Shown in pieces: positions 39,334 through 61,368 of a stretch of DNA of 64,000 nt. Each line of letters opens with the position of its first letter. The first letter of the stretch is position 1. The stretch is from Synergistota bacterium. Its GTDB lineage: Bacteria; Synergistota; GBS-1. Both the position numbers and the translations under genes were made by a program. The notes below the pieces were generated by a model. It searched no databases and had not been told where the DNA came from. It saw only the letters and a program-made list of their open reading frames with translations. Where the stretch lies: assembly GCA_025060595.1 (NCBI GenBank), contig JANXBX010000009.1, positions 1 to 64,000 on the forward strand. The letters are read 5' to 3'.

Positions 39334-40385
39334 AAAACTCCCTCCTTTGATATTGGCGTTAAAATTTCTACTGCTCCTTTTCTAATCACTATAGTATCTT
39401 CTATACGGATCCCAAACTCACCTCTCAAGTATACACCAGGTTCTATAGTTATTACCATTCCTTCCTCTAAAACTTCTTCACTATTTAATGAAAGTTTCGG
39501 CATTTCATGAATCTCAAGCCCAACCCCATGCCCCAAAGAATGTTTGAAAAACTCCTTCCAGCTTCCAAGTAGTTTCAGAGAAAGCTCATATAATTTCTTA
39601 GCCTCCATGCCAACTTTAATACTTCTAAGAACCTCTTCCTGAACTTCTTTAACAAGTTTATAGATTTCCATAAGTTTAGTAGGGACTTTTCCTAACAAAA
39701 GCGTCCTTGTTACATCTACATTATAGCCATCGTATGTAACACCGTAGTCGCAAATAATACAATCTCCCACATTTAAGGTTTTTAGTGAAGGACGAGAATG
39801 AGGCTTAGCGGCATTTTCATTAGCAGCTATGATAAATGGAAAAGCTCTATCTTCACCACCTATACTTTTAAGGAAAGCTTCTAGTTGAATCTCTATCTCT
39901 CTTTCTGAAATACCTGGTTTTAACTTCTCCAATAGCCATTCATATCCTCTTGAAACTATTTCTCCAGCCTTGCGAATTTTTTCTATCTCCTCATCACTTT
40001 TAATTTTTCTTAATTCTTCTATTCCGCTTGGAATAGGACAAACCCCGAAACTTGAACTAATTTTTTCAAAGAATTCATAACTAACAAATCTTGACTCGAT
40101 TGCAACTTTTTTGACAGCCCTTTTCTTAAGCCTATCTATAACGAAATCTAAAAGGGAAAAGCTGTTAGGGACTTCATAAACTTTACAATCTCTTATAGAT
40201 TCTTTTTCTGCATCTTCTAAACATCTAAAGTCTGTAAAAAGTTCTATAGAATCCTCCATCAATAGTACTAAAGCTGCTTCTCCTCTATAACCAGTTAGAT
40301 ACCTTATATTTACCGGTTTAGATATAATATATGCCTCGCAACCTTTTAAGGCAGCTATATTAAAAGCCTTTTGCCATCTCTTCAC
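39324..40385 (-). CDS. M24 family Xaa-Pro aminopeptidase
   Basis: A 353-residue creatinase-fold peptidase. The metal ligands are visible: the Asp pair in CDYGVTYDGYNVDVTRTLLL, His in HSLGHGVGLEIHEMPKLS, and the two Glu in EEGMVITIEPGVYL and RIEDTI. It removes N-terminal residues before proline. The GTG start overlaps the pilC stop (GTGA), with GGGGGA 8 bases upstream. Its place between pilus and nusB blocks suggests operon hitch-hiking rather than a shared role. Confidence 0.92.
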   Translation of the reverse strand: MKRWQKAFNIAALKGCEAYIISKPVNIRYLTGYRGEAALVLLMEDSIELFTDFRCLEDAEKESIRDCKVYEVPNSFSLLDFVIDRLKKRAVKKVAIESRFVSYEFFEKISSSFGVCPIPSGIEELRKIKSDEEIEKIRKAGEIVSRGYEWLLEKLKPGISEREIEIQLEAFLKSIGGEDRAFPFIIAANENAAKPHSRPSLKTLNVGDCIICDYGVTYDGYNVDVTRTLLLGKVPTKLMEIYKLVKEVQEEVLRSIKVGMEAKKLYELSLKLLGSWKEFFKHSLGHGVGLEIHEMPKLSLNSEEVLEEGMVITIEPGVYLRGEFGIRIEDTIVIRKGAVEILTPISKEGVLCL

Positions 40386-41602
40386 CTTGAGAGTCCCCCA
40401 ATAAGCTGAAATAATGGCATAAATACAGAAATAGCTATAAAACCAACAACTAAACCAATAAAAACTACGAGAACCGGTTCTATCAAAGAGGATATTCCCT
40501 TTATATCGTTGTCTATTTCCTCATCATAGAAGTCAGCTACTTTATGGAGCATTTCGTCGAGGTTACCTGTTTCCTCCCCCACTGCCATCATATGAGTTAG
40601 CATTGGAGGGAAAATACCAGTTACTAATATAGATTCGGCCAAGCTCTGTCCCTCTTGGACTCTATCTTTAGCTGAAGCCACAGCTTTACTTATAACTTTA
40701 TTTCCAACAACCTTAGAAACCATTTCAATAGAATCAAGCACTGGAACCGCTGCTGCACTTAAAACAGCTAGGGTTCTTGAAAACCTAACCATTGCAACTT
40801 TGTAAGTTAATTTACCAATTATGGGTAACTTAAGTTTAATATTATCAATAAAAAAAGAGGTTTTTTCATGTCTCTTAAGAAGTTTTACCAATATCCACAA
40901 AAAAAGCGGAATAAGTAAAAGCTTATAGTAATTGAACTCTAACCAATGAGTAAAAGACATAAGAATTCTAGTAGGAGCAGGAAGTGGAACACCAATGCTT
41001 TCGAGTATAGATACAAACCTAGGTACTATAAAAGTTACAAGCATAAAGATTATGATTATAGCTAATGACAGAACAAAAACAGGATATCGCATTGCAGTTT
41101 TAATACGCATGGTTAAAGCACTTTCTCTTTCCAAGTGAGAAGCTAATCTTTCTAAAACTTCATCTAGCACACCACCCGCTTCTCCAGCTTTAATTAAATT
41201 AACATAAAGTTCATCAAAAAGCTCTTCGTGTTTAGACATCGCTTCAGCAAGAAAGCTGCCTTCTTCCACATCTCTTTTTATGAACCGCAAAGCCATTCTT
41301 AGATTTCGATTAGCTGTTTGTTGAGATAATATATCCAACGCTGCTACCACGGTCATGCCAGCTTTTATCATCGTTGAAAGTTGTCTACTTAAGATAGCAA
41401 TGTCTCTTATAGATACACGCCTTGAAACAAAAGTCTTTCTCTTCGTAACATCAGAAGAAGCCCTCTTTTCTTCTTTTATATATATTGGAAATAAACCTTC
41501 TTCCCTTAACTTATAATAAAGAGTTTTTTCATCTTCTGTTTCTCTTCTTCCCTCAACTATTTCTCCTTTAAAACTTTTAGCTCTATAAAAATAAAGAGGC
41601 AC
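40382..41602 (-). CDS. pilC: Type IV pilus inner-membrane platform protein PilC
   Basis: A 406-residue GspF-family protein with two repeated cytoplasmic helical domains and three membrane segments (about 170-200, 220-240 and 370-400). Typical stretches are ILSRQLSTMIKAGMTVVAAL and MRYPVFVLSLAIIIIFMLVT. It forms the rotor-like platform on which PilB and PilT act. It is the last gene of the pilus block; the GTG start lies 12 bases after the pilT stop. Confidence 0.93.
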   Translation of the reverse strand: MPLYFYRAKSFKGEIVEGRRETEDEKTLYYKLREEGLFPIYIKEEKRASSDVTKRKTFVSRRVSIRDIAILSRQLSTMIKAGMTVVAALDILSQQTANRNLRMALRFIKRDVEEGSFLAEAMSKHEELFDELYVNLIKAGEAGGVLDEVLERLASHLERESALTMRIKTAMRYPVFVLSLAIIIIFMLVTFIVPRFVSILESIGVPLPAPTRILMSFTHWLEFNYYKLLLIPLFLWILVKLLKRHEKTSFFIDNIKLKLPIIGKLTYKVAMVRFSRTLAVLSAAAVPVLDSIEMVSKVVGNKVISKAVASAKDRVQEGQSLAESILVTGIFPPMLTHMMAVGEETGNLDEMLHKVADFYDEEIDNDIKGISSLIEPVLVVFIGLVVGFIAISVFMPLFQLIGGLSR

Positions 41603-41614
41603 TTTTAATCACCT

Positions 41615-42673
41615 TTATATGCTTATTAATTTTTCAAGGATATCTGGATTATGAGCAAATTCCATAGCTATCTCTTTTTCTATTAAACCGCTTTTATAGA
41701 GCTTTGCTATAGCTTGATCCATAGTTTGCATTCCAAACTTAGCTCCTGTTTGAATAACAGAATATATCTGAGCAATTTTCCCTTCTCTTATTAGATTTCT
41801 TACAGCTGGAGTTGCTATCATAACTTCGGCAGCTACTATCCGACCTCCTCCTTTTTTAGGAAGAAGTTGTTGTGAGATGATTCCTTGAATGACATTAGCA
41901 AGTTGCACTCTTACCTGATTCTGCTGATGAGCCGGAAAAACATCTATTATCCTATCTATAGTTTGAGGAGTATCAGGAGTATGAAGAGTAGTCATAACAA
42001 GATGACCCGTTTCCGCAGCTGTTATAGCTATGGAAATCGTCTCAAGATCTCTCATTTCGCCAATTAGTATAACATCAGGATCTTGTCTCAAAGCATGTCT
42101 AAGAGCAGAAGCAAAACTTTGACTATCTACTCCTACCTCTCTTTGAACTATAAGGCTTTTTTTGTGCTTATGAACATATTCTATAGGGTCTTCTATGGTT
42201 ATTATTTTACGAGAAGTATTCTCGTTTATATAATCTATCATAGCAGCTAAAGTGGTGTTTTTCCCACTACCAGTAGGACCGGTCACGAGTACTAATCCCC
42301 TAAGCTTCATAGCTAAATCTTTAAGTATTAGAGGAAGCTTTAACTCTTCTATGGTTCTTATTCTATTAGGAATCAACCTTATAGATGCGCCTGGTGCTCC
42401 TCTATGGTAAAATAAGTTTACACGGTAACGAGCCTTATCCTTTATTTCATAAGCAAAATCAAGTTCTTTGTTTTCTTCAAATAGTTTCCTTTTAAAAGGA
42501 TCTAATATTTCAGTTATAAGTCTTTCGATTTCCTCTGAGGAAAGCTTATTCCATTCCCTAACCGGCTGAAGTCTACCATGTATTCTATAAACAGGCTCTA
42601 TACCTAAAGCTAGATGCAGATCAGAAGCATCAAGTTCTATCATCTTCAACATGAGATCTACAAGACTACTCAT
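41615..42673 (-). CDS. pilT: Type IV pilus retraction ATPase PilT with altered Walker A
   Basis: A 352-residue PilT. It keeps the Asp box (IITIEDPIEYVH), Walker B (QDPDVILIGEMRDLET), His box (GHLVMTTLHTPDT) and the PilT-specific VRNLIREGKIAQI. Walker A reads GPTGSGKNTTLAAM: the Ser/Thr that binds magnesium after the Lys is Asn139 (codon AAC at 42257-42259). The gene is otherwise intact. It may be slow or inactive as an ATPase, which would affect retraction. The ATG overlaps the pilB stop by one base (TGATG). Confidence 0.92.
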   Translation of the reverse strand: MSSLVDLMLKMIELDASDLHLALGIEPVYRIHGRLQPVREWNKLSSEEIERLITEILDPFKRKLFEENKELDFAYEIKDKARYRVNLFYHRGAPGASIRLIPNRIRTIEELKLPLILKDLAMKLRGLVLVTGPTGSGKNTTLAAMIDYINENTSRKIITIEDPIEYVHKHKKSLIVQREVGVDSQSFASALRHALRQDPDVILIGEMRDLETISIAITAAETGHLVMTTLHTPDTPQTIDRIIDVFPAHQQNQVRVQLANVIQGIISQQLLPKKGGGRIVAAEVMIATPAVRNLIREGKIAQIYSVIQTGAKFGMQTMDQAIAKLYKSGLIEKEIAMEFAHNPDILEKLISI

Positions 42674-44334
42674 CAGGACGTCACCCTCAAAACTTCCTCA
42701 GGAGTAGTGATACCAGCCTTTACCTTTCTTATACCATCTTCTCTAATAGTTATCATTCCCTCCTTAATAGCCTGAATCCTTATCTTAGAAGCAGGAGCTC
42801 TTTCTATAGTCAAACGTTGAGTTTCTTCGCTTACTAACATTATTTCAAATATTCCAGTTCTACCTTTATAACCGGTATTTCCACATTCTTCGCATCCCTT
42901 ACCTAAATAATAGGATACCAAAGATTCAAACTTCTCAGCTATTATAATATTTTTTTCTCCAACTGCATGAATCTCTTTGCAGCTAGGGCATATTTTTCTA
43001 ACAAGACGTTGAGCTATAACACCAATTAAGGAAGAAGCAACAAGGTATGGCTCAATTCCCATATCTACAAGTCTTGTAATGCTACTTGGAGCATCATTAG
43101 TATGGAGTGTAGAAAGAACAAGATGACCAGTCAATGCAGATCTTATAGCTATCTCTGCTGTTTCTTTATCCCTTATCTCTCCTATCATTATTACATCTGG
43201 GTCTTGCCTCAAAACATGCCTAAGTATATTGGAAAAAGTCAATCCTATCTTTTCATTAACTTGAACCTGATTTATACCCTCAAGCTGATACTCTACGGGT
43301 TCTTCTACAGTAATGATGTTCTTTTCCACAGTGTTCAGTTCCTTTAGCATAGAATACAATGTAGTAGTCTTACCACTCCCTGTAGGACCAGTTACAAGTA
43401 TCATTCCATAAGGTTTAGAAAGCAAACTTTTCACCTTTTCAAGCGCATCTTCCCAAAAACCCAGTTTTTCCAAACCAATTAAAACATCATCTCGATTAAG
43501 GATTCTCATTACTATCTTTTCACCAAAAATGGTGGGAAGGCTTGAAACCCTTAAATCTATATCTCTTCCATTATTTGATATGAGCACCCTACCGTCTTGA
43601 GGTAACCTTTTTTCAGCTATATTCATGCCAGCCATAACTTTTATTCTAGTAGTTATTAAAGGATGAATACCTTTATGAAGGACCATGACTTTCCGCAAAA
43701 CACCATCAATTCTAAACCTAATAACTATATTATCTTCTTGAGGTTCTATATGAATATCACTTGCTCTTTCAAGCAAAGCTTGGGATATAATTCCATTAAC
43801 TACCTGAATTATAGGAGCAAGCTCATCTTCAGTAACTGTTATATCTGTAGAGGGTTCTTCTTTAGTTTCTATTTTTTCACGTATCAAAGCATCAACTTTA
43901 CCCTTCATTCCGTAAAGCTCTTCTATAAGCTGTTTAATCTCACTCCCTGATGCTACAGCTACTTCTATATCATATCCAGTTAAAAGGGATAACTCATCTT
44001 TAGCTACTACATTCAAAGGATCAGACATAGCGACAAAGAGTTTATTGTTTTTTATCTCAATAGGGATTAAAACATGTCTTCTTGCAAAGCTTTCAGGAAC
44101 TAAACTCAAAACTTTAGGGTCTATCTTCTCTTTCCTAATGGAAACAAATGGTATATTAAGTTGCTTAGCAATAACAGAAGCAATTTCCTTTTCAGTTAAA
44201 ATACCCTGCTTCGCTAAAACAACACCAAGCCTCTCTCCTGTCTTTTTCTGCTCTTCAAGAGCTTTATCTAATTGAGAACGCGTTATAGCTCCTGCTTCTA
44301 AAAGCAACTCTCCTAGTCTTTTTCTTTCCTTCAA
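42673..44334 (-). CDS. pilB: Type IV pilus extension ATPase PilB
   Basis: A 553-residue GspE/PilB ATPase. The N-terminal MshEN domain (about 1-150) has the repeated RLGELLLEAGAITRSQLDKA pattern, which in relatives binds cyclic-di-GMP. The motor domain has GPTGSGKTTTLYSMLKEL, RQDPDVIMIGEIRDKETAE and TGHLVLSTLHTNDAP. A tetracysteine zinc site follows (CPSC and CEECGNTGYKGR). The TTG start at 44334 is supported by AGGTG 7 bases upstream. Confidence 0.95.
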   Translation of the reverse strand: MKERKRLGELLLEAGAITRSQLDKALEEQKKTGERLGVVLAKQGILTEKEIASVIAKQLNIPFVSIRKEKIDPKVLSLVPESFARRHVLIPIEIKNNKLFVAMSDPLNVVAKDELSLLTGYDIEVAVASGSEIKQLIEELYGMKGKVDALIREKIETKEEPSTDITVTEDELAPIIQVVNGIISQALLERASDIHIEPQEDNIVIRFRIDGVLRKVMVLHKGIHPLITTRIKVMAGMNIAEKRLPQDGRVLISNNGRDIDLRVSSLPTIFGEKIVMRILNRDDVLIGLEKLGFWEDALEKVKSLLSKPYGMILVTGPTGSGKTTTLYSMLKELNTVEKNIITVEEPVEYQLEGINQVQVNEKIGLTFSNILRHVLRQDPDVIMIGEIRDKETAEIAIRSALTGHLVLSTLHTNDAPSSITRLVDMGIEPYLVASSLIGVIAQRLVRKICPSCKEIHAVGEKNIIIAEKFESLVSYYLGKGCEECGNTGYKGRTGIFEIMLVSEETQRLTIERAPASKIRIQAIKEGMITIREDGIRKVKAGITTPEEVLRVTS

Positions 44335-44344
44335 GGATAAACAC

Positions 44345-46297
44345 CTAATCCTTTAATATTCTCGGGGTTACAATAAGAACAACTTCCTCTCTTGTGCGAG
44401 AATGTGTTTCGCTTCTGAAGAACATACCTATAAATGGTATATCCCCAAGCAAGGGAACTTTAAAGAGATTCTTTATATCCTCTTCTGTTATTAAACCTCC
44501 AATTATGATAGGCTGTCCATCTTTGACCCTCAGTTTTGTCGTAACTTTCCTATGTCCGATTTCTGGGATTCTTTGACCAGCATATTCTACCCACCTTGTT
44601 ATTATACTCACATCTATATCTATATCAAGGGTTATTTTATCATCTTCACCAATGTAAGGCGTAATAATAAGCTGTGGTCCATAAGTTATTGTTTCCCACT
44701 TTTGAGTTATCGTTCTCTCTCCATTCTGTATCTCCTCCACTCTGCTATAGTATTTATAATCTCTCGTTAAGTTAATTACTGCCTTTAAACCACTTAAAGT
44801 GGCCACACTTGGGCTTGCTAAAACCTTCGCCTTACCAGAAGAAATCCAGGCATTTATAGTAGCATCAAAAGCAGCAGACGCTGCCATATCGCTACTGTAG
44901 CTTATAGTTATCTGAGAAGAAGGATCCACACTTATGTTATAAAACTTTCCTTTAGAAATATTAGACAGAACAACGCCAAGGCTTTTACCGCTTTCTAGGG
45001 AAACTCCCACAAGTTTTGCCTCAACCATTACCTGAGGGACTTCCCTGTCTAATAGCTTAATCGTATCCTCAACCTTTTTAATGTCTGCTTGGGATCCTTG
45101 AACTATAAGTGCGTTCATTCTTGAGTCAATTACAATATTTTCTACACCAGTTATAGAAGAAACAGTTTTTGCTATATCTGAAGCTATAGCGTTCGAGAGT
45201 AAAAAAACTTTTGTATCTTTTTTATCAAATAATTCTCGAAGTCTCTCTTCTTTTGCAACAATAAGCGTATTACCAAGATTTCTATAACTTAATCCTGAGA
45301 TTTTAAGCACCCAATCGAAAGCTTGCGCAAAAGGAATATCTTTAAAGCTAACCGTAATTTTTCCTGATACTTCCTGATCAAGAATTATATTTATTTCCAC
45401 AGCTTTAGCAAGCGCTCTAAAAATATCTCTTATATCTGCATCTCTAAACTCTAAACTTACCTTCCTTGAAGCCCATCCTTCGGTTGAATAAGATTCAGTT
45501 TTCCTTTCTTTAGGTACAACTTCTTCTTTAGCTTTCGGGAAAAAGTTAATTACAAGTTCCCTTCCTGAAAAGAAGTTTTCAAGTTTGTAGTTAACTTTCT
45601 CAGCTTCAAGACTGACTATTAGCCTAGCTATATGAGGAGTAAATTGCTCTAGGCTAAAACCTGAGACACCAAAAGCATTTAAAGTCTGACTAAAGCTAGC
45701 ATCTCTAAAGACAAAACCTTGAAAATCTAATATCATTCGATCTTCTCCTCTATCTCCTTTTATCCAGTTAATTCTTGGATTCAAGGGTGCCTCACCCTTA
45801 ACCACAATTTTCAAACCATTTTCCATTATGCTAGCTTTTACGTCTTCTATACTAAAAATCTTGGCATCTATGGACGTAATTCTTTCTCTGGGTGTGGAAG
45901 GATAAAAGTAATATACCAATACTTTTCCATTTTCACTTTCGCTAGCCCGATAAGGAAGCCTTGTTGAAGAAAACTCAACTACTATACGTGCTTCCCTTTT
46001 AGTGTATTGTCCACCTCTAACCTCCCAAACATCGCTTCTCCTTAACGGGAGCTTACGTAAGGTAGCCCTATAGTTAAAACTTTCGAAGGATATTACCATT
46101 CTCTCTCTATCGCCAGGAAGCCAAATTATATCTGGTTTGGCGGGGTGACTTAAATATATAACAAGCTTTACCCACTCTACTGTTGGGTATACTTCTACCT
46201 TTTCTATCCTTTTAGTAGCAGCGATAGCTTCTCTTGAGAAAATAAACAATAAAAATAAAGCCATACCCACACTACTCATAACTTTAAATAGTTTCAT
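44345..46297 (-). CDS. pilQ: Type IV pilus outer-membrane secretin PilQ
   Basis: A 650-residue secretin. A signal peptide (MKLFKVMSSVGMALFLLFIF, cut near REAIAA) precedes two AMIN domains (about 30-115 and 140-240). An STN domain (FRDADIRDIFRALAKAVEI) and an N1-type ring domain (MNALIVQGSQADIKKVEDTI) follow. The C-terminal secretin core has VLASPSVATLSGLKAVINL and VPLLGDIPFIGMFFRSET. It shows that the cell has an outer membrane. The ATG at 46297 has GAGGAG upstream and fits the signal peptide; GTG 46309 is an alternative. Confidence 0.94.
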   Translation of the reverse strand: MKLFKVMSSVGMALFLLFIFSREAIAATKRIEKVEVYPTVEWVKLVIYLSHPAKPDIIWLPGDRERMVISFESFNYRATLRKLPLRRSDVWEVRGGQYTKREARIVVEFSSTRLPYRASESENGKVLVYYFYPSTPRERITSIDAKIFSIEDVKASIMENGLKIVVKGEAPLNPRINWIKGDRGEDRMILDFQGFVFRDASFSQTLNAFGVSGFSLEQFTPHIARLIVSLEAEKVNYKLENFFSGRELVINFFPKAKEEVVPKERKTESYSTEGWASRKVSLEFRDADIRDIFRALAKAVEINIILDQEVSGKITVSFKDIPFAQAFDWVLKISGLSYRNLGNTLIVAKEERLRELFDKKDTKVFLLSNAIASDIAKTVSSITGVENIVIDSRMNALIVQGSQADIKKVEDTIKLLDREVPQVMVEAKLVGVSLESGKSLGVVLSNISKGKFYNISVDPSSQITISYSSDMAASAAFDATINAWISSGKAKVLASPSVATLSGLKAVINLTRDYKYYSRVEEIQNGERTITQKWETITYGPQLIITPYIGEDDKITLDIDIDVSIITRWVEYAGQRIPEIGHRKVTTKLRVKDGQPIIIGGLITEEDIKNLFKVPLLGDIPFIGMFFRSETHSRTREEVVLIVTPRILKD

Positions 46298-46305
46298 ATT
46301 ACTCC

Positions 46306-46833
46306 TCACCTCGATTCTTCAAACTCAAGAAACTTCAGCTGATTCTTCCAACTTATAACGACTTTACCCTTCTCTATTTTAATTACTTTAACATCACCCC
46401 TTTTCTCTCCTTGAGCGAGCACTACTCCTTTTTCGTCTCCTATTTGCAAGACAGCTATTTTTTTCGATCCTACATCTACTATTCCTTCGAGCCTAATAGG
46501 AGGAGGAATTTCAACAACTAATCCAGACTGAGGATTAACCTTAACTTCTAACTTATTTGTTGAAAAGTCCGTTACTAAAAGAAAAGGATCTTTAAGCTCC
46601 AAACTTTCAGGTTTGATACTCTTTAAATAATCTTCGCTTTTAGGAAACTCACGAAGCGTCTCAATCAAAGCATCTATATCCTTTTCAGCTAAAACAGTGA
46701 CTCTTTCCGCACTAATACTAGCATGAGGCATAGAAGAAGGAGAAAATATATCCTCTAAGAATCCAGAATAGTAAAGATATGCACTTCCAAAAGCAAGGGA
46801 TGCAATAAAAGCCCACAAAAACCCTTTTCTCAT
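46306..46833 (-). CDS. pilP: PilP-like pilus assembly protein
   Basis: A 175-residue protein with one N-terminal membrane segment (about 4-22) instead of a lipoprotein signal. The C-terminal beta domain (about 105-170) contains IRLEGIVDVGSKKIAVLQIG and GDVKVIKIEKGKVVI, like the homology region of PilP. PilP links the PilN/PilO frame to PilQ. The call rests strongly on position in the M-N-O-P-Q order. The ATG follows GGAGAG. Confidence 0.78.
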   Translation of the reverse strand: MRKGFLWAFIASLAFGSAYLYYSGFLEDIFSPSSMPHASISAERVTVLAEKDIDALIETLREFPKSEDYLKSIKPESLELKDPFLLVTDFSTNKLEVKVNPQSGLVVEIPPPIRLEGIVDVGSKKIAVLQIGDEKGVVLAQGEKRGDVKVIKIEKGKVVISWKNQLKFLEFEESR

Positions 46834-46837
46834 ACTT

Positions 46838-47380
46838 TTATCTCTCCAATACTAGAAAATCTATGTCCATTTTTAAGGTAAGACTATCCTGAGCAACGCT
46901 AAGATTAAAGCCCTTGACTCCTATTAGAAAAGGAGAAACCAAAACTTTATTAAGAAAATCCATTATTGATAAAAAATTTCCACTAAGTTTAATATTAAAA
47001 GCAGATATCTTTTCCTTTTCTCTTCTAAAAGTTAACTTTTCCAATTCTAAACCGCTGTTTCTTGCTGAACTTCCCAAAAGTATAGCTACATTATTTACAT
47101 CTTCAGATTTTGGCAGGAAAGCTTTATAGGTTTCTACAATTCCTATCAACTGATAGAGCTTTTCCTTAACATCCTTGGATTTTATAACCTGGCTCTCGAG
47201 AATACTTATTTCCTTTGAAAGTTTTTGATCCTTTTCCATCAAATCTGTTAACATACTATTGAATTTTACAGTTACAGTTAAATGAAAAATAATAAGGAGA
47301 ATAAGACCTAATCCCCAAAAAAACCAAAAGTCTTTTTTCTTAAATCTCTCACTTAGAACATTTCTTAAGTAGACAAACAT
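46838..47380 (-). CDS. pilO: PilO-like pilus alignment protein
   Basis: A 180-residue protein with a short cytoplasmic start, one membrane helix (about 22-42), a coiled coil (about 50-85) and a ferredoxin-like fold at the C-terminus (about 95-178). This is the PilO plan; sequence identity in this family is always low, and the order between pilN and pilP supports the call. Confidence 0.82.
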   Translation of the reverse strand: MFVYLRNVLSERFKKKDFWFFWGLGLILLIIFHLTVTVKFNSMLTDLMEKDQKLSKEISILESQVIKSKDVKEKLYQLIGIVETYKAFLPKSEDVNNVAILLGSSARNSGLELEKLTFRREKEKISAFNIKLSGNFLSIMDFLNKVLVSPFLIGVKGFNLSVAQDSLTLKMDIDFLVLER

Positions 47381-47381
47381 C

Positions 47382-47930
47382 CTACCACCAGCTCTTTAAT
47401 TTGCATATAAAATTAAAGGGCAACTCACCGCCCTTTTCCCCCTCAAAGCTAGGAAGAGAAACCTCTTGAATTATTTTCATATTTTTAATAACATTTAAAA
47501 GCTCAGCTATAGCCTTTGGAGATGTTGCAAGACCATAGATCCTTAACTCCCTCTCCTTAAAACTTTCGATCTTATCCAATTTAACCCCATCAGGAAAGTT
47601 AGAAGAAAGAGATAATAAAAATTCATAAATAGGTAAAAGTTCAGAAGTAAATGATTTTAATTGCTTAACAAAACTTTCAGCCTCTTTATATGCGTTGAGG
47701 GGATTTTCTCGTTGAAGTTGACTAACTAAGGCATTAAATGTCTTTTCTTTATCTTTAACAAGCTCACTAAAATAATTATATTGGTAGTAAAGCCATAAAG
47801 CAAAAAAAACAGACATAACCCACGCAAGAACAAGGGATATACGCATTAGCGAAAAAAATAGCTTCTTTCGTCTAAGATTCTTAACCTCTTTGGGCAATAG
47901 ATTAGGTTTAAATTTTAAAAACTCTTTCAT
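47382..47930 (-). CDS. pilN: PilN-like pilus alignment protein
   Basis: A 182-residue protein with the short N-terminal motif that binds PilM (FKPNLLPKEV, residues about 7-16), one membrane helix (about 30-50), a coiled coil and a C-terminal PilN domain (VKLDKIESFKERELRIYGLA). It pairs with PilO in the inner membrane. The gene ends one base before the pilO start. Confidence 0.87.
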   Translation of the reverse strand: MKEFLKFKPNLLPKEVKNLRRKKLFFSLMRISLVLAWVMSVFFALWLYYQYNYFSELVKDKEKTFNALVSQLQRENPLNAYKEAESFVKQLKSFTSELLPIYEFLLSLSSNFPDGVKLDKIESFKERELRIYGLATSPKAIAELLNVIKNMKIIQEVSLPSFEGEKGGELPFNFICKLKSWW

Positions 47931-47933
47931 TAA

Positions 47934-48932
47934 TTAATATACCCCCCTTAAAGCTAAACCTATAGCAAGTCCAAGCCTGTTCCTGAAAACATGAATTTCT
48001 TCTGTTTCTTTTTTTAAGTGAATACCCTTTAAAGGATTAATTTTTTTAACTGGAATACCTAATTGGTCTTCTAAAAAAGTTTCCAACCCTTTTAGGGAGC
48101 TAACACCTCCAGTTATATAAACACTGCGTACCACATTCTCCTTAAATTGTCCTATTATATAGTCGAAGCAATGCATAATTTCACCAATAAGATCGGCTAA
48201 TATATCTTCAATATAAGGCTTAAGATCTATAATACTCTTGCCTTTCTTTAACTCCTCGGCTTTATTAAAATCAAGGTTGAGCGAAGCTGAAAGCGCAGAT
48301 GTAATAGCATTACCCCCTGTTGGTAAAGATCTAAATAGAATAGGACGCATTTCATGTAATACAGCAATATCTACTGTGCCAGCACCAATATCAATCAACA
48401 TAAAGCTTTCTTTCTCTTCAACAAGTTCATCAACTCTGAGGATAGGCAAAAGGCTCGCTTCAATAGCCTCAATTTCAATCCCTATATTCTTGAAAACATT
48501 GTATATTCCCTCTACAATAGACTGCTTTGTAGCAACTACTAATATTTCTAACTTTTCTCCTTCTTCATCAAAAACACTACGCAAAACATAAGAATCATAA
48601 ACTGCTTCATCTAGGCTAAAGGGTAAATTTCTCCCTATTTCCCAGTCCAAAAATTTTTTAAGTTCCCTATTTTCAACTTTGGGTATATTTATTAACCTTA
48701 TTATAACATCCCTGCCACCTATACAAGTCACTACTTTTCCTCTCTTAAAATCAAGTCTTTCAAACATACTACTTAAAGCCTTTGAAACTGCACCATAGTC
48801 CTTTATAAGACCAGCAGCAATAACCCCTAATGGAATAGATTTAAAACCCCATTCCTCCAGGACCCTCCCCTTCAACTTAACAAATTTGATTCCACTCGTT
48901 CCTATATCGATACCTATCCAGGCTCTACTCAT
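47934..48932 (-). CDS. pilM: Actin-like pilus assembly ATPase PilM
   Basis: A 332-residue FtsA/actin-fold protein. It carries WIGIDIGTSGIKFVKL (phosphate 1 loop), MLIDIGAGTVDIAVLH (phosphate 2) and VYITGGVSSLKGLE (adenosine loop). It sits on the cytoplasmic side bound to PilN. The start is set at ATG 48932, because it fits the family N-terminus; TTG 48956 would overlap the ComFB-like gene by 7 bases. Confidence 0.93.
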   Translation of the reverse strand: MSRAWIGIDIGTSGIKFVKLKGRVLEEWGFKSIPLGVIAAGLIKDYGAVSKALSSMFERLDFKRGKVVTCIGGRDVIIRLINIPKVENRELKKFLDWEIGRNLPFSLDEAVYDSYVLRSVFDEEGEKLEILVVATKQSIVEGIYNVFKNIGIEIEAIEASLLPILRVDELVEEKESFMLIDIGAGTVDIAVLHEMRPILFRSLPTGGNAITSALSASLNLDFNKAEELKKGKSIIDLKPYIEDILADLIGEIMHCFDYIIGQFKENVVRSVYITGGVSSLKGLETFLEDQLGIPVKKINPLKGIHLKKETEEIHVFRNRLGLAIGLALRGVY

Positions 48933-48949
48933 TAACTTATATGCCCCCA

Positions 48950-49234
48950 CTAACAAGAGTGATCCGGTCTCCTTGAAACAACTTGAATAGCATCCAAAAC
49001 GGCTTCTAAAACATCAACCTGGAACTGAGCCTCTATTTCCCTGAGCTTCAAAAAGATATAGCCTCTGTCTGTAACCATATACTTGGGAGGAAGTCTATTT
49101 AAAGCATAGGCCATCATATCTGCGATACATTTATCACACTTACACACATCTTCTCTATCCTTTAAAAGTTTAACTAGCGTTTCTCTAACAACTTTCTCCA
49201 TATAATTTCTTGGCATTTTTTCTTCTGGTATCAT
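48950..49234 (-). CDS. ComFB-like late competence protein
   Basis: A 94-residue protein with the ComFB pattern: N-Y-M-E-K-V-V-R-E-T, the paired cysteines CKCDKC, then ADMMAYALNRLPPKYMVTD and a helical end. In Bacillus comFB lies in the comF competence operon. In cyanobacteria ComFB-like proteins bind cyclic dinucleotides and affect pili and competence. Its place between pilM and the pilin genes suggests pilus regulation or DNA uptake. Confidence 0.82.
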   Translation of the reverse strand: MIPEEKMPRNYMEKVVRETLVKLLKDREDVCKCDKCIADMMAYALNRLPPKYMVTDRGYIFLKLREIEAQFQVDVLEAVLDAIQVVSRRPDHSC

Positions 49235-49247
49235 TTAAAAATCACCC

Positions 49248-52200
49248 CTACCTTGGGCTAATTGGGAGATTAGCCCAGTCTATGCCTCTATAAGAACCAG
49301 TATTAGCATTTCCCACGTTATTCCACCAATAACAAGGCGAATCATGAGGAAAGCAAACCCAGCCATGATTATTACCAGGATTGGAGCTTATATTGCTCGA
49401 ATCTACATTACTAGGATCGTAATTTAAGCTACCTGAAAGATAAGAGTTACATCCGTAGAGTCGCCCTGCCCATTTTATACCTGTAATCCTATGCCTTAAG
49501 CTACTAACATGGTCAATCACAGTCCCCCCTGCAGGTATATAAAGACCGAAATTTCCCTTAGCCAACCAATTACTTCCCTCTAAATAGCTACCATTAATAT
49601 GGATATTTTTTACAAGTCCGCTTCCAGAACTTACATAAACACCATATTCCCAAGAACTGTTATTACTCTTCAACCTTAAAAACAAGTCTTTAAAGACAAA
49701 ATCTCCTTTAGATAGGGAAATTACAGCCTTTTCGGAAAAGATTCCGCTAACCTCAAGACCTAAACCATATAAGAGAAAGCCTCTTTCTGATATAGAGATC
49801 TGAAAAGGTATATCAACTTTTGTATAGTAAGGTCCCCACATTCCTAAAATTCCTAATCCAATTTTCGATACCGATAAATTGGAACTAAGAGAGTAAGAAC
49901 CCTTTCCTAAAATCAGTGTCTCCCCTTCAAGAAGGTTAATCAAGACAAAATTCAAATCACTTCCACTAATTCTTTCAATTTGGTTCTCAAGCCTTAACGA
50001 GATATTGTTTTCTCCATAAAATACCCTAATATAAGGATATAAATCCATCCTTAAACCCATATCACCCCCATCAAAGTTTCCCTCAAGGTAGCTATTAGAA
50101 CCAGAGAAGACAAGTCTATAAGAAAGAGGGTTAAATAAAGCCTTTATAACCTTTCCGTTTCCATCGGGGAAAAAGTTTTCCTCTTCGTAAGAGGAAACAC
50201 TATCATTATGAGCACCAGAGAAATTTTCTCCCCAAAAGAGGTTCCCTTTTATGTTAATATTTCCACTATATTGAAGCCCAGATGTATTAAGAAAGCTTCT
50301 ATCGTAAAAATTGGGAACACCAGAAAGGTCAGCTACTACTCTCCTGTACTCATGATCAAATACATTATTGCAAATATTAACAGCTAAACAGTTTTCGATC
50401 TTTATATCTATAAGTCTTCCCATACCTCCGTAAATCCTCTTAAAAATACAATCTGCTATATCTAAAGATGAAACACCAGATAATTTCATAAATACTTTCT
50501 CTCCTTGGTCACTTTTACCTCCGCTTAAACCAAAGTAAAAACCATATATGCTAATTTCGGAAGCGTTATTAAAACTTAAGACTCCCTTTGTTGAAGAAAC
50601 TGCTTGCCAAACTTCAGGTAAAAAGGTAAATAAAGGTGTAAAAAGCGGTCCCCATGCAGAAATCATTATGAAACTACCTATGTTATTAAACTCATACCCC
50701 TGAGTTATATACCAGAAACCTCTGCCAAAAAGGAGAAGAGCAGAACCAAAGGATGTAGAGGAATAGTAACTTTTGAGAGCCATAAAGGCACTATCAGCAC
50801 TGTAAAATTTTTCATACCTATAGGTGTCTCCCATCTTATAAACCAAGATTATCTCTCCTCCTTTAGGAACAGGCAACATCCTTTTCCAGTAGTATGATGT
50901 TAGGCCTATGTTTCTACTTTCAAGTACAGAATCTTTTTGAGGAATATAACCATCCCAATGCCTGAACCACTCTATATTTTTATAGAAACCTGCGGAAAAA
51001 CTATAAAACTCCTTAAACTTGGGATCTTCCTCTACCGTATTCACTAATGTAACAAGTCCTGAAGTTTTATGCATATTTCTCCAAAAAAGTGAATTTTCAA
51101 CAATAAGAAAACCGTTGGAAACTCCGTTAACTATAGCAGTATTATGATTAAGAAAAACACTACTGTTGATCCTCCCATTAAAGGCAGCATCTTTATCAGA
51201 AACTTTCAAGATACTTACAGCATAACTTGTAGAACCGGTTTTATAATCAAGAAAATTCCCAGCATCAAATATTGAATTTGAAATCTCAAGTTCTGATAAC
51301 CCCTTGCTTCTTAGGATAACCTTAACGCTAGAAAGAGAGCTTCCCATATAAGCTACAAGATCCCTATTTTTAACGATACAATTTTGCAAAACTAAGCGCG
51401 TATTGATATCATCAACTAAAACTGCAGAAATATCCTTATTCCGATGAACTTCCTTTTCAAGGTTTATTCTTTCTAAAGGAGGAGAAAGCCATATATCTCT
51501 GATAGTAAGCTCTGCACCGTTTCTGATTCGTATAGTAGACCAATAGTTAGCATCGGTAATTTGCGAAGAAGCTTTGTAAGGAATTATCCCTACCACTTTA
51601 ACCCATTGAGGTCCCCATCCTTTAGCAGACCTTAAAATTATGCTTTTATTTCCTTCAACGTCAATACCATAACAATAATCCCCAGCCCTCTTCATTGGGA
51701 CCACATAGACGCCAGGACCAAGAACTATTTCATAATCCTTTCCTCCTCCAACAAGTGTAAAAGCACGTTCTAAAGCTTGTCCACCACGATATCCATCATC
51801 AGAAAGCCTTTTCCAGATTTCTCCCCTCTTTATTATTAAAACCTCTCCAATACCTACGCTAGCCTCTACACCAATTCCCTCGCCCTGAGGGATAGATGTT
51901 TTAGTAAGCTTCAGAGCAAGTGGAAAACGAGAAGCAACTTTCTCCCCTTCCTTTAATACCCCCTCTACGTAAAAATAAACTTCGTTTCCTTGCTCACAAA
52001 TTTTAAAGTTTTCTACACGGAATGCCAACAATCCATCTAAAAAAAGATTATGATCTGGAAGATATGGCTGAGTCCATGAAACAAGGAGAGATCTCGCTTC
52101 ACTCCCGTAAAACCACTTCGGGTTAGAAAGGGAAAAAGAAGGATTTTCTAACCTATATTTAGAGACGGCCTCATTTATACCTGCCTCAGCAGCAAAAAAA

Positions 52201-52334
52201 CTCTGACTTCCTCTTACCTCAGCTCTCGAAACAGCTTGCTGAGAGGAATACAAAAAAGCAAACCCTCCACCTATAACAGCTAAAACAGTTAGTATAACTA
52301 ACGACAAAGCTATAGAACTAACCCCTTTTCTCAT
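49248..52334 (-). CDS. Giant pilin-like protein with three beta-helix modules
   Basis: A 1028-residue protein. The N-terminus (MRKGVSSIALSLVILTVLAV) is a PilX-type hydrophobic stalk with SFFAAEAGINEAVSKY just after it, but the usual Glu at position 5 is absent. The rest is rich in Gly, Ser and Asn with right-handed beta-helix character. Three modules share a turn ending in W-G-P: KGWGPQWVKVVGI (about residue 239), SAWGPLFTPLFTF (about 556) and LGMWGPYYTKVDI (about 832). It may sit at the pilus tip as an adhesin in place of a PilY1. The ATG overlaps the stop of the previous pilin gene (ATGA). Confidence 0.72.
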   Translation of the reverse strand: MRKGVSSIALSLVILTVLAVIGGGFAFLYSSQQAVSRAEVRGSQSFFAAEAGINEAVSKYRLENPSFSLSNPKWFYGSEARSLLVSWTQPYLPDHNLFLDGLLAFRVENFKICEQGNEVYFYVEGVLKEGEKVASRFPLALKLTKTSIPQGEGIGVEASVGIGEVLIIKRGEIWKRLSDDGYRGGQALERAFTLVGGGKDYEIVLGPGVYVVPMKRAGDYCYGIDVEGNKSIILRSAKGWGPQWVKVVGIIPYKASSQITDANYWSTIRIRNGAELTIRDIWLSPPLERINLEKEVHRNKDISAVLVDDINTRLVLQNCIVKNRDLVAYMGSSLSSVKVILRSKGLSELEISNSIFDAGNFLDYKTGSTSYAVSILKVSDKDAAFNGRINSSVFLNHNTAIVNGVSNGFLIVENSLFWRNMHKTSGLVTLVNTVEEDPKFKEFYSFSAGFYKNIEWFRHWDGYIPQKDSVLESRNIGLTSYYWKRMLPVPKGGEIILVYKMGDTYRYEKFYSADSAFMALKSYYSSTSFGSALLLFGRGFWYITQGYEFNNIGSFIMISAWGPLFTPLFTFLPEVWQAVSSTKGVLSFNNASEISIYGFYFGLSGGKSDQGEKVFMKLSGVSSLDIADCIFKRIYGGMGRLIDIKIENCLAVNICNNVFDHEYRRVVADLSGVPNFYDRSFLNTSGLQYSGNINIKGNLFWGENFSGAHNDSVSSYEEENFFPDGNGKVIKALFNPLSYRLVFSGSNSYLEGNFDGGDMGLRMDLYPYIRVFYGENNISLRLENQIERISGSDLNFVLINLLEGETLILGKGSYSLSSNLSVSKIGLGILGMWGPYYTKVDIPFQISISERGFLLYGLGLEVSGIFSEKAVISLSKGDFVFKDLFLRLKSNNSSWEYGVYVSSGSGLVKNIHINGSYLEGSNWLAKGNFGLYIPAGGTVIDHVSSLRHRITGIKWAGRLYGCNSYLSGSLNYDPSNVDSSNISSNPGNNHGWVCFPHDSPCYWWNNVGNANTGSYRGIDWANLPISPR

Positions 52335-59169: not shown

Positions 59170-59198
59170 TCTTTATTTTTATGGAGGGAGAGCTAAAA

Positions 59199-60146
59199 AT
59201 GAAAGAACCTTTCAGACAAGTGGAAGAAAGAATAATACTTATAACAGAAGGAACTAAACTAATAATAAAAAACATCTATGGAAGTACTAAATTAAAAACA
59301 TGGGATCATCCAGAATTAAAGGTTAAGCTAACCAAAAGCATATTGGGGGAAATTGAAGAAAATGAGGCAGAGCAAAAGCTAAAACACATAGAACTAAAAG
59401 AGAAAAAAGGAAGTAAAGAAGTAACTATGGAAACGATGATCCCTAATTTCATTATAAGGCCAGGCCTTAAATTTACTATAGATTTAGACATTCTTGCTCC
59501 CCCACATATTAACTTAGAAATAGATACAGGTCTTCAAAAGCTAAATGGAAGTAAGAAAGAAGGAAATATAGAAATATCTTATAGGGAAAACTTTACTACG
59601 TTAATATCTAATATAAAAGGAAATATAGACATATCCTGTGGATCTGCAGACATAGAAATTAAAAACTCTGAAGGGAAAATAATAGTAAATAGTTTAAGCG
59701 GAACAGTTCAAATTAAAAATTGTTCGGGAGAGATGTATATTAATAACGAAAGCGGTAATAATTATTTAGATGGATGTAGTGGATCTATAACATTAAAAAC
59801 CAAAAGCGGAAATGTATTTCTGAAAAATGTAGAAAGCCTGTACTTAAACATTAAAACATCTAGTGGAAATATAAAAGCAGATATCAACATTTTAGCTGAT
59901 GGAACCTATCAACTCGAGACCCATTCTGGATGGATAAAGTTAAAAATACCGTATTATTCCTCTTGCCATATAGAATTTGACACAATATGTGGTAAAATCT
60001 TTAGTGAGTATTCCTTCGAAACAAAGGAAAATAAATTGAAACTTGGAGAAGCCAAAGGAAGCCTTATAGTAAAATCTTCAAGTGGCGACATATATTTAAT
60101 TCATGGCTTCATGGAGGAAGAAAAAGATGTTTATCTTAGCCAATGA
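59199..60146 (+). CDS. DUF4097-like beta-solenoid protein, first of tandem pair
   Basis: A 315-residue protein. Residues about 125-305 are short beta repeats built on S-G-N/D and N-x-x-G, for example GNIDISCGSADIEIKNSEGK and SGNVFLKNVES. This pattern fits the DUF4097 (putative adhesin/toast-rack) beta-solenoid. There is no signal peptide or membrane helix, so it is probably cytoplasmic. The start is ATG 59199 with GGAGGGAG 9 bases upstream; ATG 59181 overlaps that site. Its role is unknown; relatives often accompany anti-sigma or membrane-stress modules. Confidence 0.75.
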   Translation: MKEPFRQVEERIILITEGTKLIIKNIYGSTKLKTWDHPELKVKLTKSILGEIEENEAEQKLKHIELKEKKGSKEVTMETMIPNFIIRPGLKFTIDLDILAPPHINLEIDTGLQKLNGSKKEGNIEISYRENFTTLISNIKGNIDISCGSADIEIKNSEGKIIVNSLSGTVQIKNCSGEMYINNESGNNYLDGCSGSITLKTKSGNVFLKNVESLYLNIKTSSGNIKADINILADGTYQLETHSGWIKLKIPYYSSCHIEFDTICGKIFSEYSFETKENKLKLGEAKGSLIVKSSSGDIYLIHGFMEEEKDVYLSQ

Positions 60147-61368
60147 AATTTTTAGGTTTTTTAAACAAAAGCCAAAAACTCCCAATAAGGTTGCCCCCAC
60201 AGGCAACTTTATAGATAGATCTCTAAAGAGAGAAGAAACCACCTCTAAGGGAGGAATGCTTATGGTAGCAGAGAGTGTGGTAAAGGGTGAAGTATTTATA
60301 GAGTATACTGAACCTTTTGAAAAATTATTACTTGTTCCAGAAAATGCATTACTCTCTTGTACAAACAAAGCAGGAGATATAGTAATCAAATCATGGGACC
60401 AGATGCTTCTTAAAATCGCAGCAGTAAAGCACACGTGGGGGAAAAATAAAAAAGAAGCTCAAGAGTTATCTAAGGAAATAGAAGTTAGAATAATACAAAG
60501 AGATGAAAGCATATCTTTAGAAACTTTCCTTCCACAAAGCAACGGAAAAAAGACAAGTTACGTTAGCTATAAGATATTTATACCTAAAAACCTTAATGTA
60601 GCTATAGAAGCAGAAGAAAGTAACGTTTTCATTAGTGATCTTAATAAAAATTTAAGAGTTAAGACCACTTCTGGTAACGTCTTTATAAGAAATATTTCTG
60701 GAAACGTCCACGCTCAAACATCTTCAGGAAATATCTTGATAAATAACATTGGCGGAAACACGACAATAATAACGGAAAGAGGCGAGGTTCATACAGAAAA
60801 CATAGCAGGTAACCTTGATGTAGAAAGCTCTGAAGGAAATGTTAAAGTATTTCACTCCAGGCAAAATGTTGTAATAAGTATGAGTAAAGGAAACATATCT
60901 TTCTTTGATATAGAAGGAAGCATTGAAGTAAAAGCTACTAAAGCCAAAATAATAGGAGAGTATGTGCAAAAGAATCTAAACATAGTGTTAGAAGAGGGTG
61001 ACATGTTCCTTGATGACGTGGAAGGAAACATAACTATACATTTTAAACAAGGATCCTTAACTTTAGGAAATAAACATTCTTACCGCATAGAACTTTCCTC
61101 AAATAGTGGAGATATAAATTTAGATACAGTGGTAAAAGAAAATGGAAGGTATATAATTGAGACATCAGAAGGAACTATAAATTTGAAAATTCCATCTGAT
61201 GCATCTACAGCTATAGTAGCAAAGACCATAAAAGGAATTATCTCGTGCGAACTACCATTGATAATTACACAAAGTAGCAAAGATGAATTAACAGGGGTAC
61301 TTAATCAATATAAAGCTCTAATTAAGCTCACTACATCAGAAGGAGATATAAACATAAGGAAGAAGTAA
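60127..61368 (+). CDS. DUF4097-like beta-solenoid protein, second of tandem pair
   Basis: A 413-residue paralogue of the gene before it. The middle (about 165-320) has dense repeats of about 20 residues, such as TSGNVFIRNISGNVHAQTSS and GNILINNIGGNTTIITERGE. The N-terminus has an amphipathic start (MFILANEIFRFFKQKP) but no true signal peptide. ATG 60127 follows GGAGGAAG, and the gene overlaps the first by 20 bases, so both are translated together. Its stop codon lies inside a strong terminator stem. Confidence 0.75.
   Translation: MFILANEIFRFFKQKPKTPNKVAPTGNFIDRSLKREETTSKGGMLMVAESVVKGEVFIEYTEPFEKLLLVPENALLSCTNKAGDIVIKSWDQMLLKIAAVKHTWGKNKKEAQELSKEIEVRIIQRDESISLETFLPQSNGKKTSYVSYKIFIPKNLNVAIEAEESNVFISDLNKNLRVKTTSGNVFIRNISGNVHAQTSSGNILINNIGGNTTIITERGEVHTENIAGNLDVESSEGNVKVFHSRQNVVISMSKGNISFFDIEGSIEVKATKAKIIGEYVQKNLNIVLEEGDMFLDDVEGNITIHFKQGSLTLGNKHSYRIELSSNSGDINLDTVVKENGRYIIETSEGTINLKIPSDASTAIVAKTIKGIISCELPLIITQSSKDELTGVLNQYKALIKLTTSEGDINIRKK

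Follow-up and report, generated by a model that had tools for sequence, protein, structure and literature searches.

In P-loop NTPases, the Ser or Thr that directly follows the Walker A Lys (position K+1) is a ligand of Mg. It serves as such in ClpB, where it is Thr (PMC3940203), and in Ras, where it is Ser (PMC5618229), and section 4.2.5 of PMC9599734 describes it as strictly conserved, with activity lost on replacement. The same paper proposes the K+1 Ser/Thr and the Walker B Asp as the universal catalytic, proton-accepting pair of P-loop NTPases, and handles PilT-like enzymes separately, in its supplement. In PilT-like enzymes, Walker B carries Gly at the position of the Mg-binding acid and a Glu of the ASP box takes over Mg (PMC5424180); this Glu is E164 in Geobacter PilT (PMC6858323). 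With no Walker B Asp in the PilT family, Mg in an ordinary PilT has two protein side chains available, that of the ASP-box Glu and that of the Ser/Thr in Walker A. Since the ASP and HIS boxes also contribute residues to the subunit interfaces (PMC6858323), their conservation alone is no proof of hydrolysis.

Asn at K+1 is already known from the torsins, AAA+ ATPases in which it is naturally fixed (GXXXXGKN). Torsins have weak ATPase activity and depend on cofactors (PMC7175109). In yeast, however, a refolding assay showed no difference when the Asn of torsin A was changed to Thr (PMC5628414), and an enzyme's slowness is thus not necessarily due to Asn. The equivalent side-chain change has been engineered in ClpB, a hexameric motor (Nagy et al., 2009, as cited in PMC3352338 and PMC5628414), and the Thr-to-Asn mutant is described as forming intact hexamers that retain part of the ATPase activity and prefer ADP (PMC3352338). 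In Ras, mutation of Ser17, at the equivalent position after the P-loop Lys, weakens nucleotide binding, with GTP the most affected (PMC5618229).

The window analysed here is a stretch of 64,000 nucleotides from a Synergistota bacterium (contig JANXBX010000009.1, assembly GCA_025060595.1). It holds a type IV pilus cluster with PilM, PilO, a secretin, PilB, PilC, N-methyl minor pilins and a PilX_N protein, in which the gene of interest is pilT:

40382..41602, minus strand: pilC, platform protein (two T2SSF stretches)
41615..42673, minus strand: pilT, PilT/PilU family retraction ATPase of 352 aa carrying Asn139 (TIGR01420 and T2SSE, PF00437)
42673..44334, minus strand: pilB, extension ATPase with the canonical Walker A GPTGSGKTTT (T2SSE and MshEN domains)
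44345..46309, minus strand: pilQ-like secretin (PF00263, PF03958, PF07660)
46838-47380, minus strand: pilO (PilO, PF04350)
47382-47930, minus strand: probable pilN, judged by position alone
47934-48956, minus strand: pilM (PilM_2, PF11104)

In a whole-protein profile search the PilT scored 491.2 bits against TIGR01420, for which the curated cut-off is 319.1, and the Pfam search gave 164.6 bits for its T2SSE domain, with an AAA_30 match below the cut-off of that profile; the protein is thus no member of AAA+. Alignments to the solved PilTs 2gsz, 2ewv, 5zfq and 3jvu span nearly its full length. It resembles the described type IVa retraction ATPases of the PilT/PilU family (TIGR01420; 2gsz, 2ewv, 6ojx) in this full-length match, in the other boxes and in the gene order pilB-pilT-pilC, but differs from an ordinary PilT in having Asn instead of Ser/Thr at K+1 and Lys instead of His at residue 156. 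The torsins, on the other hand, share only the GKN of their Walker A with it; they have another P-loop class, lack an arginine finger, depend on cofactors and are no family-level relatives of PilT.

The Walker A motif and the remaining motifs lie as follows:

42251..42280, minus strand: Walker A, GPTGSGKNTT, residues 132-141, read from the sequence
42257..42259, minus strand: codon AAC for Asn139, at the K+1 position of Walker A usually held by Ser/Thr, read from the sequence
42206..42208, minus strand: Lys156, found only in the family at a site of conserved His; candidate co-change, from alignment with 103 other PilTs
42179..42193, minus strand: ASP box EDPIE, residues 161-165, from the alignment
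42047..42061, minus strand: end of Walker B and catalytic Glu, GEMRD, residues 205-209, intact in the alignment
41978..42022, minus strand: HIS box TAAETGHLVMTTLHT, residues 218-232, intact in the alignment

The codons of Walker A, GGT CCT ACT GGT AGT GGG AAA AAC ACC ACT, keep the Lys of the pattern GxxGxGK[ST] and replace the Ser/Thr after it (GPTGSGKN). That pattern is the usual one, not a curated requirement of the PilT/PilU family, and membership as a variant stands. By its score, its other motifs and its neighbourhood, the protein is assigned to the PilT family, and it departs from it just at the Walker A Ser/Thr. The PilT boxes are recognizable as GEMRD (catalytic Glu after an atypical Walker B), TIEDPIE (ASP box) and TAAETGH...TLHT (HIS box). 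By its place in the motif, Glu165, the last Glu of EDPIE, is taken to match the Mg-contacting E164 of Geobacter PilT. The preliminary description of this DNA, which reported Asn at the Walker A residue that coordinates Mg, next to a PilB with a normal Walker A, is borne out on each of these points.

Four genomes in the collection compared (G000, that of the window, to G003) make up the family, while the remaining relatives were graded as just the same phylum. An alignment of PilT from close relatives, proposed in the preliminary description as a check, gave Asn encoded by AAC in all three family members in which the codon can be read. One of these is of the same genus (G001, PilT 86% identical, C205:4026-4051) and one of another genus of the family (G003, 81% identical, C1:27132-27157). 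In the fourth genome, G002, two contigs (the ends of L122 and L123) stop inside pilT, such that approximately residues 27-208, including Walker A, are missing. It was therefore left out of the count, and three genomes inform on Asn139. Although AAC differs from AGC by one base, a sequencing or assembly error is practically refuted and has next to no probability, as independent genomes share the codon. Synonymous sites among the three pilT copies are saturated (pS 0.71-0.79, Nei-Gojobori, 350-352 codons), which rules out one shared error. Given these independent relatives, it is very unlikely that reads would show Ser or Thr at codon 139.

The rarity of Asn was assessed in a comparison set built from the single best PilT of each locus (119 rows, 106 of them distinct), which holds the best matches from one scan plus Synergistota and is no random sample. 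Column 139 of the 106 distinct PilTs is Ser in 92, Thr in 11 and Asn in three, all three from the family (G000, G001 and G003). Similarly, the 41 distinct PilT-type P-loops from loci L085 upwards, ten of which yielded none, being PilB or other loci, comprise 36 with Ser, two with Thr and three with Asn. PilT was found at E <= 1e-80 in 134/183 genomes of the phylum; most had one match, and G180 and G184 had three each. A GKN pattern search of 185 Synergistota genomes matched six, with PilT only in the same three; the others were a guanylate kinase (L130) and two matches outside recognizable P-loop genes (L129 and L131). Beyond the phylum no GKN-type PilT was found, with pattern matches in 0/299, 1/249, 0/60 and 0/10 (mixed) genomes, the sole match among the 249 being a LonB-like protease (L132). 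The patterns require a P-loop of the GP-x-G-x-GKN kind, and other kinds escape them; as a check of power, the Ser/Thr version matched 56/60 genomes of the group of 299. The guanylate kinase (L130 1423-2037, G146) reads GPSGAGKNT, with Asn at the equivalent P-loop position of a Mg-ATP enzyme, and the LonB-related protease (L132 3-2060, minus strand, G682) reads GPTGTGKNT. Searches within the openly licensed literature found no published report of GKN in a pilus motor, and it is Asn in the pilus motor PilT that is new here.

A quick tree built from the 106 PilTs, with column 139 retained, groups the Asn trio in one clade (SH-aLRT 100) surrounded by Ser/Thr, for which a single change on the family stem is the simplest account. 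The stem has a length of 0.39 and the next fork a support of 57. Acquisition of Asn with a transferred pilT was considered and rejected, as the tree offers no supported sister group and the neighbours are all Ser/Thr.

The preliminary description had also held that the other PilT boxes are intact and that the gene is not simply decaying, and both statements hold. Near-invariant columns were defined as those in which one residue (or Ser/Thr) accounts for at least 98% of the 103 non-family PilTs, giving 57 columns, among which column 139 is included through the Ser/Thr grouping. All three Asn-carrying PilTs retain 56/57, with column 139 as the sole break. Among the three copies, pilT dN is 0.099, 0.141 and 0.157 (Nei-Gojobori) against saturated dS, compared with 0.178-0.188 for pilB and 0.191-0.258 for pilC in the same genomes, so that PilT is better conserved than the other two. 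Purifying selection on the gene is strong, and decay can be rejected. Furthermore, the search of this 1.86-Mb, 34-contig genome found no PilT besides the Asn139 protein and hence no canonical second copy, the other matches being PilB, a GspE-like paralogue on contig C2 that keeps GKT (GPTGSGKTTT), and, on C17, a weak match (28%).

This protein is estimated to hydrolyse ATP, most likely more slowly or with tighter ADP binding, by analogy with the Asn enzymes described above. With Asn139, the ordinary protein pair contacting Mg would drop to one sure member. Asn139 may contact Mg either directly, by the oxygen of its side chain, or via a water molecule, with Glu165 of the ASP box bearing most of the protein's share in Mg binding. 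Such a rebuilt Mg-ATP site would have been fixed once, in the ancestor of the family, and its cost would be slower turnover and stronger retention of ADP, giving slow or paused retraction. That the protein is a genuine PilT which drives retraction by hydrolysis at a site rebuilt in this way, slower or biased to ADP, is given about an even chance, its activity, its Mg geometry and its slower cycle all being inferred. The small, deep-branching lineage's only pilus-retraction motor found is probably, judging from the gene and its relatives, working yet unusual. The slow or regulated retraction put forward in the preliminary description thus remains plausible, in that it fits the published effects of Asn in ClpB (PMC3352338) and torsins (PMC7175109) by analogy. 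The ClpB case differs from PilT as an engineered form of an AAA+ enzyme, and the effect described is that on ClpB. Counting against this reading are the loss of activity on replacement stated in PMC9599734, the poor nucleotide binding of Ras mutated at this Ser (PMC5618229) and the unchanged behaviour of torsin A with Thr (PMC5628414).

A motor of ordinary speed, in which Asn139 is fully compensated, neutral and epistatically locked, would be a less expected but still appreciable outcome. H156K accompanies Asn139 in all three genomes, whereas residue 156 in the 103 other PilTs is His in 94, Asn in nine and never Lys; among the 41 distinct P-loops from loci L085 upwards, His156 goes with Ser/Thr in 38/38, all from Synergistota. 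F83Y and A97S are also family-fixed at conserved sites and these, or other changes, might contribute, with less conserved family-fixed changes lying at residues 8, 26, 90, 124 and 176. The indifference of torsin A to Asn or Thr in one assay (PMC5628414) would agree with neutrality, as would GKN in the guanylate kinase and the LonB-like protease, which suggests that other P-loop enzymes tolerate Asn. However, residue 156 lies nine residues ahead of Glu165 and a structural link between 139 and 156 is hypothetical. On a stem 0.39 long, clade-specific changes are to be expected, and co-occurrence within a single clade counts as one evolutionary event, such that compensation is suggested and not proven.

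It is also conceivable that the ring binds ATP and does not hydrolyse it, acting as a structural or braking ring of the pilus machine, as would be in line with the poor GTP binding of the dominant-negative Ras Ser17 mutants (PMC5618229), albeit in a GTPase switch, and with the ADP bias of the ClpB mutant (PMC3352338). This is improbable, as three lineages with saturated synonymous divergence have kept the catalytic Glu and the ASP and HIS boxes without change, and pilT dN lies below that of pilB and pilC. Moreover, as just one PilT was found in the genome, an active PilT that it could assist is lacking, and the purely structural partner suggested in the preliminary description is the part of its interpretation that is not supported. 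Alternatively, the ring alone might be nearly inactive and be switched on by a partner in the pilus machine, as torsins, which share GKN, depend on LAP1 or LULL1 (PMC7175109). We consider this distinctly doubtful, since torsins are described as lacking an arginine finger (PMC5628414), while this PilT breaks, among the near-invariant columns, only column 139. The slowed but working retraction motor with a rebuilt Mg-ATP site is the reading preferred here.

If active, the protein would offer a natural case against the view that the K+1 Ser/Thr has to accept the proton of the attacking water. There is a slightly less than even chance that it represents a ring motor that produces force and hydrolyses Mg-ATP with neither the K+1 Ser/Thr (here Asn) nor the Walker B Asp (Gly in PilT-like enzymes). 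As Asn occurs across at least two genera, in the only PilT found and with the rest intact, the universal-pair proposal as worded in PMC9599734 becomes testable on a natural protein, in a family that offers many solved structures for testing how such enzymes split ATP. It is also a caution that one broken Walker A residue is poor ground for calling a protein a pseudo-enzyme.

With regard to a use for retraction, a ComEC-type Competence domain is present in all four family genomes (G000-G003), and DNA uptake would provide one. The pilin cluster also encodes a 1028-aa protein (49248-52334) whose N-terminus is of the PilX type and whose long remaining part has no Pfam match; it is possibly a tip protein. 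Further along the window, at 59181-61368, two adjoining, overlapping ORFs (321 and 421 aa) carry repeated 'SGN'-type segments that resemble each other.
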